This document shows, in pieces, positions 14,528 through 63,405 of a stretch of DNA of 64,000 nucleotides. This stretch comes from Candidatus Egerieimonas intestinavium (lineage in GTDB: Bacteria; Bacillota; Clostridia; Lachnospirales; Lachnospiraceae): contig DVHU01000099.1 of the NCBI GenBank assembly GCA_018711815.1, forward strand, positions 1 through 64,000. The letters run 5' to 3'. Positions within the stretch are counted from its first letter, which is position 1. Each line of letters starts with the position of its first letter. The notes under the pieces are model-generated. The model was not told the DNA's origin, ran no database searches, and saw only the letters and a program-made list of their open reading frames with translations. A program made the translations under genes and the position numbers.

Positions 14528-15064
14528 TTAGTAGTTCTCTACCTTTCTCTCGAAGTATGCTCTGGGATGTGCGCATACCGGGCAAACCTCGGGAGCTTCC
14601 TCTGCCTCATGGATATAACCGCAGTTGCGGCACTTCCAGCCCAGGGGAGCGTCGCCCTTGAAGGTCTTGTCCGCCTGATAGGACTCCAGAAGCTTGCGGT
14701 AGCGTTTCTCATGAGCAGCCTCTACCCGGGCTACACCCTCGAATTTTGCAGCCAGCTCCGGGAAGCCTTCCTCTCTGGCCTCTCTGGCCATTCTGGCGTA
14801 CATATCGGTCCACTCATAATTCTCACCGGAAGCGGCATCCATCAGGTTGTCAGCGATCTCATGGATTCCATGGTACTCCTTGAACCACATTTTTGCGTGC
14901 TCTTTCTCCTGATCCGCGGTCTCCAGATACAGGGCAGCCAGCTGCTCGTAGCCGGCCTTCTTGGCTGCAGAAGCGTAGTAGGTATATTTATTGCGGGCCA
15001 TGGACTCTCCTGCGAAAGCGTCCATCAGATTCTTTTCGGTTTTCGTTCCTGCGTATTTGGACAT
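14528..15064 (-). CDS. rbr: Rubrerythrin
   Basis: The 178-residue protein has an N-terminal ferritin-like diiron domain ([29 protein letters not shown]) and a C-terminal rubredoxin domain with two CxxC pairs (CRNCGYIHE and [11 protein letters not shown]). Rubrerythrins reduce hydrogen peroxide in anaerobes with electrons from NAD(P)H via rubredoxin reductases. A strong GGAGG ribosome site precedes the ATG. It lies downstream of reverse rubrerythrin and perR on the same strand, so it is likely part of the same oxidative-stress group. Confidence 0.95.
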
Positions 15065-15214: not shown

Positions 15215-15763
15215 TTAGCCAAAGTATCTCTTCAGCAGACCCTCAAATGCCTTGCCGTGACGAGCCTCGTCTCTTGCCATCTCATGTACGGTGTCATGGA
15301 TTGCATCCAGATTTGCAGCCTTAGCGCGCTTAGCCAGATCAAACTTGCCGGCGGTAGCACCGTTCTCAGCGGCAACACGCATCTCCAGGTTCTTCTTGGT
15401 GCTGTCGGTTACAACCTCGCCCAGCAGCTCTGCAAATTTTGCAGCGTGCTCAGCCTCCTCGTAAGCTGCCTTCTCCCAGTACAGGCCGATCTCCGGATAG
15501 CCCTCTCTGTGAGCAACGCGAGCCATAGCCAGGTACATACCAACCTCGGAGCACTCTCCCTCGAAGTTAGCTCTTAAGTCAGCCAGGATATCCTCGCTTA
15601 CGCCCTGAGCAACGCCAACCACGTGCTCCGCAGCCCAGGTCAGACCCTCAGCCTGCTCCTGGAACTTGGAAGCCGGAGCCTTACATACAGGACAGACAAA
15701 ATCTGCCGGCAGGGCCTCTCCCTCGTAAACATAACCGCAAACACCACATACAAATTTCTTCAT
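15215..15763 (-). CDS. Reverse rubrerythrin (N-terminal rubredoxin, C-terminal diiron domain)
   Basis: The 182-residue protein has the domain order opposite to classical rubrerythrin: a rubredoxin-like module first ([11 protein letters not shown] ... [10 protein letters not shown]), then a ferritin-like diiron domain ([40 protein letters not shown]). In Clostridium acetobutylicum proteins of this order are peroxide and oxygen reductases that are strongly PerR-repressed. It has its own promoter and PerR-like operator upstream. Confidence 0.92.
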
Positions 15764-15859: not shown

Positions 15860-16249
15860 TCAGGAATTTTCTAAACATTTTTTGCAGATACCGTAAAAGT
15901 TTGTGACATAACTGTCAATTCGGCCGCCAAAATTTTTAGAAGCCGTATCTTTGATGAAATCAATATTTTCCATGTCCAAATCCATAACGCAGTGACATTT
16001 TTGGCAGATAAAATGATTGTGGGGATGTACCTGCCCGTCATAGTGATCTGCGCCGTCCCCGGTGCTCACCTTGGTGATTTCCCCGATGCTGTTGAGCAGG
16101 GCTAAATTTCGGTAAACGGTTCCCAGACTAATATTGGGATACTGCAGGCGGATATTTTCGTATATTACATCTGCTGTCGGGTGATCTGTCCGCTTTACCA
16201 GAAATTCTTTGATGGATTCTCTCTGGCGGCTGTACTTCAGCGTTCTCAC
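15860..16249 (-). CDS. perR: PerR-type Fur-family peroxide regulator
   Basis: The 129-residue regulator starts at GTG 16249 with GAGGAGG about eight bases before. It has a winged-helix domain (TADVIYENIRLQYPNISLGTVYRNLALL, the recognition helix of Fur proteins) and a metal/dimer domain with HPHNHFICQKCHCVMDL and the second Cys pair CKKC near the C-terminus. Fur, PerR and Zur cannot be separated by motif alone; PerR is chosen because matched operators lie in front of itself and of reverse rubrerythrin. Confidence 0.85.
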   Translation of the reverse strand: MRTLKYSRQRESIKEFLVKRTDHPTADVIYENIRLQYPNISLGTVYRNLALLNSIGEITKVSTGDGADHYDGQVHPHNHFICQKCHCVMDLDMENIDFIKDTASKNFGGRIDSYVTNFYGICKKCLENS

Positions 16250-32262: not shown

Positions 32263-32290
32263 TGTGCGTAGCAATAGAATAGCCAGTTTC

Positions 32291-32388
32291 TCTTATTCAG
32301 AGTGGTGGAGGTACATAGGACCTGTGAAGCCACGGCAACCCCGTGAAACGGAAGGTGCCAACCTGAGCGAGCGTATCGAACAATAAGG
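32291..32388 (+). promoter_or_regulatory. SAM-I (S-box) riboswitch
   Basis: Strongly recognisable: CTTATTCAGAGTGGTGGAGG at the 5' end, GTGAAGCCACGGCAACC in the core, CGGAAGGTGCCAACCTG, and the closing GAACAATAAG pairing with CTTATT. High S-adenosylmethionine should stop transcription before metK, giving product feedback. Confidence 0.95.
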
Positions 32389-32414
32389 GGATTTGATAGA
32401 AGTAGATTTATTAA

Positions 32415-59512: not shown

Positions 59513-59746
59513 ATGAAAGTAACGAATATCAAAGATGTAGAGAAGTTTTTCCAGGTAGTAGATTCCTGCAAGGGTAAAGTAGAGCTGGTAACCGGCGAGG
59601 GCGACAGACTGAATCTGAAGTCTAAGCTGTCTCAGATCGTATCTCTGGCTAACGTATTCAGCAACGGTGAGATTCCTGAGCTGGAGCTGGTAGCTTACGA
59701 GAGAGAAGACATCGACAAGCTGATGAACTTCATGATCAACGGCTAA
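59513..59746 (+). CDS. Small conserved protein of unknown function, probably highly expressed
   Basis: Start at ATG 59513 after AAAGGAGAA. The 77-residue protein (MKVTNIKDVEKFFQVVDSCK at the start, EDIDKLMNFMING at the end) has no Cys pair, signal or membrane segment. I recall close relatives in Lachnospiraceae carrying the misleading label polyA polymerase, which nothing here supports. All nine valines use GTA, unlike the GTG-rich neighbours; with the strong promoter and ribosome site this suggests high expression. Function unknown. Confidence 0.8.
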   Translation: MKVTNIKDVEKFFQVVDSCKGKVELVTGEGDRLNLKSKLSQIVSLANVFSNGEIPELELVAYEREDIDKLMNFMING

Positions 59747-59834: not shown

Positions 59835-60929
59835 ATGACAAAGATTGACATTGTTTCCGGGTTCCTGGGGGCCGGAAAGACTACGCTGATTAAAAAGCTG
59901 CTGGCGGAGGCCTTCTGCGGGGAGCAGGTGGTGCTCATTGAGAACGAATTCGGTGAGATCGGGATCGACGGCGGTTTCCTGAAGGAGGCTGGGGTGGAGA
60001 TCCGGGAGATGAACTCCGGCTGCATCTGCTGCTCTCTGGTGGGAGACTTCGGAAAATCCCTGAAAGAGGTTATCGGAACCTATCATCCGGACCGGATCGT
60101 CATCGAGCCCTCCGGCGTGGGCAAGCTCTCCGATGTGATCAAGGCCGTGGAGGGCGTCAAGGAGCAGTGCCAGCTAAAGCTTAACAGCTTCACCACCGTG
60201 GCGGATGTGACCAAGTGTAAGATGTACCTGCGCAACTTCGGAGAGTTCTTTGAGAATCAGCTGGAGTACGCCAACACCATCATCCTCAGCCGGATGGACA
60301 AGGCTTCCCGGGAGAAGGTGGACAAGGCGGTGGAGCTGATCCGCGGAATCAACAGGGACGCCAGCCTCATCACCACCCCTATCACGGAGCTGGAGGGAAA
60401 GAAAATCCTGGAGGTGATGGAGAAGCGGGTGCAGTCCCTGGAGGACATGGATCTGCATGATCACGAGCATCATCACGAGCATGATCACGAGCACCACCAT
60501 CACGAGCACGGTGAGGAGTGCTGCTGCGGCCACGATCATCATCATGAGCATGATCACGAGCACCACCATCACGAGCACGGTGAGGAGTGCTGCTGCGGCC
60601 ATGATCATCATCATGAGCATGATCACGAGCACCACCATCATGCGGATGAGGTATTTACCAGCTGGGGCCGGGAGACCTTCAGGAAGTTTGAGAAAGAAGA
60701 GCTGGAGAAAATTCTGGCTGAGCTGGGCCGGGAGGAGGAGTACGGTATTGTCCTGCGGGCCAAGGGAATTGTGGCCGGCCAGGGCGGAGAGTGGTACTAC
60801 TTTGATATGGTGCCGGAGGAGACAGAGATTCGCACCGGGAAGGCAGATTACACGGGCCGCCTGTGCGTGATCGGCTCTAAACTGAAGGAGGAAGCTCTGG
60901 AGAAGCTCTTTGGACTCAAGGAGGCTTAA
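59835..60929 (+). CDS. CobW/COG0523-type metal-chaperone GTPase with His-rich repeats
   Basis: Start at ATG 59835 (MTKIDIVSGFLGAGKTTLI), nine bases after AAAGG. The 364-residue G3E GTPase has the Walker A GFLGAGKTT, the metal motif NSGCICCSLVG (CxCC) and a C-terminal CobW-like domain. Between them (about residues 211-270) lies a histidine-rich insert made of a 23-residue unit repeated twice plus a partial third copy, each full copy containing EECCCGHDHH. The family delivers Zn, Co or Fe-type metals to target enzymes; the insert probably stores metal. Partner unknown. Confidence 0.9.
   Translation: MTKIDIVSGFLGAGKTTLIKKLLAEAFCGEQVVLIENEFGEIGIDGGFLKEAGVEIREMNSGCICCSLVGDFGKSLKEVIGTYHPDRIVIEPSGVGKLSDVIKAVEGVKEQCQLKLNSFTTVADVTKCKMYLRNFGEFFENQLEYANTIILSRMDKASREKVDKAVELIRGINRDASLITTPITELEGKKILEVMEKRVQSLEDMDLHDHEHHHEHDHEHHHHEHGEECCCGHDHHHEHDHEHHHHEHGEECCCGHDHHHEHDHEHHHHADEVFTSWGRETFRKFEKEELEKILAELGREEEYGIVLRAKGIVAGQGGEWYYFDMVPEETEIRTGKADYTGRLCVIGSKLKEEALEKLFGLKEA
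60480..60640 (+). repeat. 69-bp in-frame tandem repeat (2.3 copies) coding a His/Cys-rich segment
   Basis: Copies at 60480-60548 and 60549-60617 are nearly identical, followed by about 23 bases of a third. Each unit codes 23 residues with 11 His and 3 Cys. The near identity implies recent duplication and likely copy-number variation between strains. Confidence 0.9.
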
Positions 60930-61974: not shown

Positions 61975-63405
61975 ATGATGAGTTTAATGATAAAGGAAAA
62001 CGGCGTAACATTCAAGGAGTTAGAGAAAAATATTTTTGCATGGGTCTGCCAGATCGGAAGAGAGTTCACAAAAGAATTCCTGGAGCGTTATGACCGGATG
62101 CTGATGGAGGGCAGAGATAAGAAGAAGTACCGGAATAAGGGCGCCAGACAGACAACCGTAAAAACCGTGTATGGCGAAGTGACCTATCAGAGAACGGTCT
62201 ATGAGGTGGCCGAGGAAGATGGAACTAAACGATTTGTATATCTGCTGGATGAAACACTGGAACTGGATCATGTAGGGCTGATTTCCACAAACATGGCGGA
62301 GCTGCTGGTAAAAGGGATCACGGAGCTGTCTTACCGGGAGTGCGCCGCGCAGGTCAGCGAGATGACGGGACAGAGCATCAGCCCGATGGGAGTATGGAAT
62401 GTCATCCAGGCATTAGGGGAAAAAGTCTGTGGGGAAGAAGCAGAGCTGACCGAAGCATATAAGAAAGGGCATTTAAAAGGGAAAAAAGAAGTACCTGTCC
62501 TGTTTGAAGAAGCGGATGGAGTTTATATCAAGCTGCAGGGCAAAGACAGAAAAAAGGAAAAGCAGGATAAGGCAGAGATTAAGATCGGAATCGCTTATGA
62601 TGGGTGGAAAAGGACTGGTCAGAACCGTTATGCCCTGGAAGATAAAGTGGTTGTTGCCGGATTTTCAAAAGCAAAAGAATTCCAGGAATACCGTGAGGCG
62701 GCGATTGCGCAGGAATTTAATCTGGATGAAGTAAGCCAGCGGATCTTAAATGCAGATGGGGCGTCATGGATCAAGAAAGTAAAAGATAAAAGCACATGTT
62801 TCCAGTTAGACCCATTCCACCGGAACAAAGCCGTAAAGGAAAAGATCCATGAAGAAGCTGCACGGGATACCATTTTAGAACTTCTGAGAGAAGAGGAGAT
62901 CGAAGAGGTATTCCGGTATCTGGAAATTTATCGGAACAGCCTGAGCGATGAGGATGAGATTGAAGATGCAGAAGAACTGATCCGATATTATGAGAACAAC
63001 CGGGAAGGACTCCTGCCGTACCAATCCCAAGGGCTTGAGCTTCCGGAACCGCCGGAAGGGCTGGAATACCGAAACATGGGGACAATGGAGAACCATGTGT
63101 GGAGTGTGATCGCAAAGCGGATGAAGCATGGGCATAGGAGCTGGAGCCGGCGGGGAGGAAATCACCTGGCAAAGATCCTGGCGAAAAAATGCAGCGGAAA
63201 GCTGTACGAAGTAACAGAACGTCTGAGAAGCCCTGTATTTGAAGAAGAGAAGGTAGAAGAGTTATACGGTGAGATCCTGATGGCGGCGAAAGCGCCAAAG
63301 AAAGAGGGAAAGGGATATGAGTATCCAGTGATGGGTCATGTGGTTGGACTGGATGGAAAGATACAGGGAGAGAGGAGACGGCTGCTGCATATGGCCGGAT
63401 ATTAG
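61975..63405 (+). CDS. ISLre2-family transposase
   Basis: The 476-residue protein (start ATG 61975 or the next ATG, after AAGGAG) matches the ISLre2 layout: N-terminal region with RNKGARQTTVKTVYGEVTYQ, then LDEVSQRILNADGASWIKKV and FQLDPFHRNKAVKEKI with acidic residues of the catalytic core, and ENHVWSVIAKRMKHGHRSWS near the end. The frame is full length with no internal stop, so the element could be active. Confidence 0.9.
   Translation: MMSLMIKENGVTFKELEKNIFAWVCQIGREFTKEFLERYDRMLMEGRDKKKYRNKGARQTTVKTVYGEVTYQRTVYEVAEEDGTKRFVYLLDETLELDHVGLISTNMAELLVKGITELSYRECAAQVSEMTGQSISPMGVWNVIQALGEKVCGEEAELTEAYKKGHLKGKKEVPVLFEEADGVYIKLQGKDRKKEKQDKAEIKIGIAYDGWKRTGQNRYALEDKVVVAGFSKAKEFQEYREAAIAQEFNLDEVSQRILNADGASWIKKVKDKSTCFQLDPFHRNKAVKEKIHEEAARDTILELLREEEIEEVFRYLEIYRNSLSDEDEIEDAEELIRYYENNREGLLPYQSQGLELPEPPEGLEYRNMGTMENHVWSVIAKRMKHGHRSWSRRGGNHLAKILAKKCSGKLYEVTERLRSPVFEEEKVEELYGEILMAAKAPKKEGKGYEYPVMGHVVGLDGKIQGERRRLLHMAGY

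Follow-up and report, generated by a model that had tools for sequence, protein, structure and literature searches.

The window analysed here, a stretch of 64,000 nucleotides, carries a gene for a COG0523/CobW-family G3E GTPase in which a His/Cys-rich insert encoded by tandem DNA repeats lies between the two folded domains. The features of this locus, together with two rubrerythrin-like genes located elsewhere in the window, are the following:

14528-15064 and 15215-15763, minus strand: rubrerythrin-like genes, beside a Fur-family gene
59513-59746, plus strand: conserved 77-aa open reading frame directly upstream of the GTPase gene, also preceding the GTPase gene in L086, L156, L157 and L174
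59771-59805, plus strand: GC-rich hairpin between the 77-aa open reading frame and the GTPase start (RNA fold z = -3.5)
59835-60929, plus strand: COG0523/CobW-family G3E GTPase gene, 364 aa (PF02492, 4.2e-38; PF07683, 5.6e-8)
59850-60368, plus strand: GTPase domain, containing the P-loop GFLGAGKTT and, with its CICC at 60021-60032, the metal motif GCICC
60456-60641, plus strand: His/Cys-rich insert, aa 208-269, predicted to be disordered (composition, AlphaFold2)
60462-60530, plus strand: 69-bp repeat unit 1, HEHHHEHDHEHHHHEHGEECCCG
60531-60599, plus strand: 69-bp repeat unit 2, HDHHHEHDHEHHHHEHGEECCCG, identical to unit 1 at 67 of 69 bases (97%)
60600-60641, plus strand: partial repeat unit 3, HDHHHEHDHEHHHH, which leads into the conserved ADEVFTSWG
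60657-60911, plus strand: CobW_C domain (PF07683, aa 275-359)

The product of the GTPase gene, for which an alternative in-frame start exists at ATG 59826, shows the defining traits of COG0523/G3E proteins: a GxxGxGKT P-loop, a PF02492 domain, the GCxCC motif and a CobW_C domain, the last matched by PF07683 at 33.0 bits against a cut-off of 22. Both GFLGAGKTT and GCICC (G62, C63, I64, C65 and C66) are invariant in an alignment of 52 orthologs. By sequence, the closest PDB entry is E. coli YjiA (2e-19), and the best Foldseek match is Zn-bound YjiA (4ixm, 4.2e-14), with HypB and UreG structures also among the fold-search matches. The CobW-type identity assigned in the preliminary description is thus borne out by PF02492 and PF07683. 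AlphaFold2 modelling with the ortholog alignment yields confident predictions for both domains and pLDDT values below 50 for residues 207-268; since this low-confidence segment spans exactly the insert, between two folded domains, the insert is predicted to be disordered. The GTPase belongs to a known class of proteins, within which its metal-binding repeat linker stands out for its size and its rapid evolution.

The 62 residues of the insert comprise 33 His, 13 Glu, 6 Asp, 6 Cys and 4 Gly, with the six Cys forming two CCC runs, in agreement with the His/Cys-rich insert described beforehand; by its composition, the insert might be the metal store proposed there. Tandem Repeats Finder reports a period of 69 nt, with 2.6 copies and 97% matches, at 60462-60640, in frame within the GTPase gene. 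The near-identity of the 69-bp repeats noted previously was therefore recovered, with the correction that a start at 60480 cuts into unit 1, which begins at 60462. Units 1 and 2 differ at two of 69 bases, one of the differences being silent. Repeated protein sequence by itself entails some likeness at the DNA level, and synonymous codons were hence shuffled within the insert (1000 shuffles) and residues compared at a 23-aa offset. Codons are identical at 33 of the 36 matching residues, where 23.7 would be expected, and 0 of 1000 shuffles attained the observed figure, so that the DNA likeness of the copies exceeds that due to repeated protein sequence. The copies have thus been recently duplicated or homogenised, which upholds, in this form, the earlier claim of recent expansion. 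When the same test was applied to 106 sequences, 18 were significant at p<0.001 (two of them being this gene, which was entered as two loci) and 39 at p<0.05, indicating recent repeats in many orthologs and old ones in many others.

Of 298 genomes of this family, 260 have an ortholog of the GTPase at E<=1e-70, and the best 80 orthologs in named genomes include those of Blautia, Mediterraneibacter, Hungatella, Hespellia and Flavonifractor, among others. The His/Cys insert is a clade-wide trait, not a peculiarity of this locus. In 157 non-redundant orthologs the insert ranges from 17 to 126 aa and contains 8 to 56 His (median 33); pooled, its residues are 49% His and 96% H/E/D/C/G, with Lys and Arg together accounting for 0.4%. 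The best repeat period, anywhere between 6 and 80 residues, is in most cases peculiar to a species. Although a single base change in a His codon can give Tyr, Asn, Gln, Arg, Leu or Pro, these residues are almost absent from the ortholog inserts, which points to purifying selection on insert composition. The insert is largely missing from some relatives, as exemplified by L077, where 21 aa with 6 His are left, so it is not essential everywhere.

The pace of change was assessed in two genera by comparing the insert with the rest of the gene (hereafter the core) in 120 ortholog pairs, pre-selected at roughly 80% core DNA identity or above. No core indels were found in the tallied pairs (>=80% core DNA identity), and insert length differs in all 11 pairs with 90-95% core identity. 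In L151 and L204 the core DNA is 99.3% identical and the inserts measure 58 and 75 aa; L183 and L177, with 95.2% core identity, have inserts of 88 and 52 aa; and in L193 and L195 (99.0%) the insert is of similar length with a rearranged interior. Some of the sister assemblies probably derive from metagenome binning, which is prone to misassembly of short repeats and may affect individual cases. The variability in repeat number suggested in the preliminary description is hence observed between sister species, and the outcome set beforehand as its refutation, a constant repeat number with diverged synonymous sites, is contradicted at that level by the length differences. The insert seems to be continually rebuilt while its make-up is kept.

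The GTPase gene is usually one of a pair. In at least 63 of 80 loci, the next gene downstream on the same strand encodes a second COG0523-like GTPase. Its homolog in the present genome (L003:1069-2025 / L115, contig C20) carries a DUF1980_C domain, and DUF1980_C is present in 31 of 31 family genomes with the His-insert GTPase and absent from five of the six without it (Fisher p 1.4e-5). In this genome the partner gene lies on another contig, beside pth and the TRCF/Mfd helicase gene, a neighbourhood found downstream of the GTPase pair in several relatives; given that the partner occupies the usual surroundings of the pair, it has become detached from the His-insert GTPase gene in this genome. 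The two GTPases probably work together. An ISLre2-family transposase gene is located close downstream of the locus, at 61975-63405 of the window, and may have brought about the rearrangement by which the partner gene was split off.

The 77-aa open reading frame upstream of the GTPase gene has no match in Pfam, NCBIfam or PHROG families. A hairpin of the form AGGGGCGGAAG-N5-CTTTCGTCCCCTTTT lies upstream of the GTPase start codon in most members of the closest genus and, outside it, in a small number of genera: it is found in L196 (minus strand, ~2640-2675), L005, L008, L085, L151, L157 and L197-L212, with variants in L018 and L158. All 22 occurrences in 1.2 Mb of examined loci are at the GTPase gene, and in ten whole genomes the hairpin was found exactly once in five and not at all in the other five. 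It follows directly on a promoter-like TATACT or TATAAT in L196 and L005, and has no large co-directional gene just upstream in L008, which places it in the leader, rather than at the end of another gene, in these three loci. Across 14 leaders, partly chosen for fitting the hairpin, its ten base pairs are 98.6% kept, with four changed on both sides, and the pairing outperforms slid or shuffled controls. The hairpin has no Rfam match, and at its position some other orthologs have ordinary terminators of upstream genes. It is terminator-like and a candidate attenuator. The strong hairpin of the window is a different one, located where the hairpin of L157 and L174 lies, and its position alone makes it a possible counterpart.

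His-rich sequences bind nickel, cobalt and copper as well as zinc, and the metal has to be argued from relatives and context. YjiA and YeiR, both related to the GTPase, prefer Zn(II) under calculated cell conditions (PMC7895991), and Zur regulation is common among COG0523 proteins (PMC2770081). The search for Zur regulation proposed in the preliminary description came out negative, in that matches to a Bacillus-type Zur box in 172 upstream regions did not exceed those in shuffles; a divergent box may have been missed. The link to zinc hence rests on family knowledge, by analogy with which zinc is most probably the metal. The GTPase scores 76.6 bits against the ZigA zinc metallochaperone model (NF038288; cut-off 600). 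The genome, which is 87.5% complete, yielded a single Fur-family gene, at 15860-16249 of the window, minus strand; as it sits beside the two rubrerythrin-like genes, it is probably PerR-like. A SAM riboswitch (RF00162, 75.5 bits) is present at 32290-32389, plus strand, distant from the GTPase gene. Elsewhere in the genome, a urease accessory gene cluster encodes, at L001:162-674, a UreE-like protein that bears a short His tail (GHSHHHGASPEEVGHS).

The reading we favour, and hold to be fairly probable as a whole, is that of a COG0523 metallochaperone GTPase with a disordered metal-loading linker, most probably for zinc, which is free to turn over, and with the second GTPase as its probable partner. 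The linker of His, Asp, Glu and Cys, predicted to be disordered, connects the GTPase and CobW_C domains, and would most likely collect and buffer several divalent ions, most probably zinc, near the CxCC site, which would hand one ion to a client protein upon GTP hydrolysis, probably in cooperation with the DUF1980_C GTPase. Because only its composition and rough length would matter, the linker DNA would be free to have in-frame units gained, lost and homogenised, presumably by slippage or unequal recombination, with the 2.6 near-identical 69-bp (23-codon) units as the putative outcome at this locus. Several points speak against this reading: the negative result for Zur boxes, the binding of nickel, cobalt and copper by His-rich sequences, the urease cluster with its His-tailed UreE in the same genome, a partner gene that is not adjacent in the window, the loss of most of the insert in relatives such as L077, and the probable metagenomic origin of some sister assemblies. 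A bolder version appears to us improbable. It takes the GTPases as clade-wide metallochaperones with a contingency-like hypervariable His/Cys repeat linker, in which in-frame gain and loss of units would retune metal capacity between strains under strict compositional selection, and adds a hitherto undescribed metal-responsive attenuator in the leader RNA.

The insert might serve nickel or cobalt instead, by storing nickel for a urease or a hydrogenase in the manner of HypB and UreE, or cobalt for corrinoid synthesis in the manner of true CobW. His stretches of HypB do bind many nickel ions (PMC2770081), CobW delivers Co(II) (PMC7895991), and this very genome encodes a urease with UreG besides UreE. 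Yet true urease matches occur in only four of 61 relatives, while the GTPase gene is present in 31 of 37 family members, and a urease or nickel link of the GTPase was rejected on these grounds. As for cobalt, the true CobW model (TIGR02475) scores the GTPase at 87.2 bits against a cut-off of 332.1, and CobN (PF02514), the usual neighbour of true cobW, has no match in the genome (87.5% complete), so that by context this is not a classical cobalt-delivering CobW; moreover, a cobalamin riboswitch is absent from the window, and the loci of 13 relatives show no credible match to Rfam riboswitches. Taken together, a nickel or cobalt role seems unlikely to us. A further reading, for which we see little probability, regards the array as neutral low-complexity DNA, with slippage-prone His codons tolerated in a linker of no dedicated metal function. 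Such DNA would fit the very high turnover, the species-specific units and the near-complete loss in a few relatives, but sits poorly with a make-up fixed over the 157 orthologs despite that turnover, with the near absence of one-base neighbours of His, with the placement of the insert between the same conserved edges, and with its retention across a family and beyond.

Similar repeats also occur in a P-type heavy-metal ATPase of the same genome (L114:4556-7207, contig C60), in which two HMA domains are accompanied by a His/Cys repeat loop, HHHEHGEECGCGH, made of a 72-bp tandem unit with HEHGEECGCGH repeats, much like the unit of the GTPase. Sequence could have been exchanged, as a shared His/Cys cassette, between the 69-bp GTPase units and the HEHGEEC-x-CGH units of the ATPase: the two inserts are 74% identical in DNA and have the core HHHEHGEEC in common, and among 172 GTPase inserts that of this genome ranks first against the ATPase insert. 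In four other genomes with His-rich ATPases, in contrast, the GTPase insert ranks 3, 33, 97 and 141 of 172, on account of which general exchange of units within genomes was rejected, and amino acids with two codons raise the chance likeness of such DNA. We consider a shared cassette very improbable.

His-rich tails of COG0523 GTPases have been known since 2009; the new part here is rapid repeat turnover under fixed composition. Neither this clade-wide turnover nor the GTPase pairing or the leader hairpin was found in the part of the literature searched. The 157 orthologs, including sister genes with near-identical folded parts and differing inserts, constitute a natural series in which metal capacity can be related to repeat number with little else changed. 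They also illustrate how very rapid turnover of low-complexity protein sequence can go together with a constant chemistry, in a protein encoded by most genomes of this family of gut bacteria.

The E. coli YjiA chain (318 aa) is not known to have a His/Cys tandem insert like this one between its domains. YjiA (PDB 1nij, 4ixm), the closest solved structure by both sequence and fold, binds Zn and has low overall identity to the GTPase. The nickel chaperones HypB and UreG/UreE resemble it in being G3E GTPases, or partners of these, with metal-storing His stretches; they differ in subfamily and in the terminal position of the stretch, which here lies between domains and is unaccompanied by urease linkage in relatives. 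The DUF1980_C GTPase (L003/L115) is co-inherited with the His-insert GTPase and adjacent to it in most relatives, but is devoid of a His insert and has DUF1980_C in place of CobW_C. With the His-rich COG0523 GTPases YciC/ZagA, ZigA, YeiR and CobW (PMC2770081), the GTPase shares the G3E fold, the GCxCC motif, the CobW_C domain and a His stretch towards the C-terminal half, and it departs from them in its fast unit turnover and in that a Zur box was not found. In the survey of Haas et al. 2009 (PMC2770081), stretches reach up to 29 His, with an average of 7 in CobW, whereas the insert described here holds 33 His and two CCC runs in tandem DNA repeats, with a maximum of 56 His among its orthologs.
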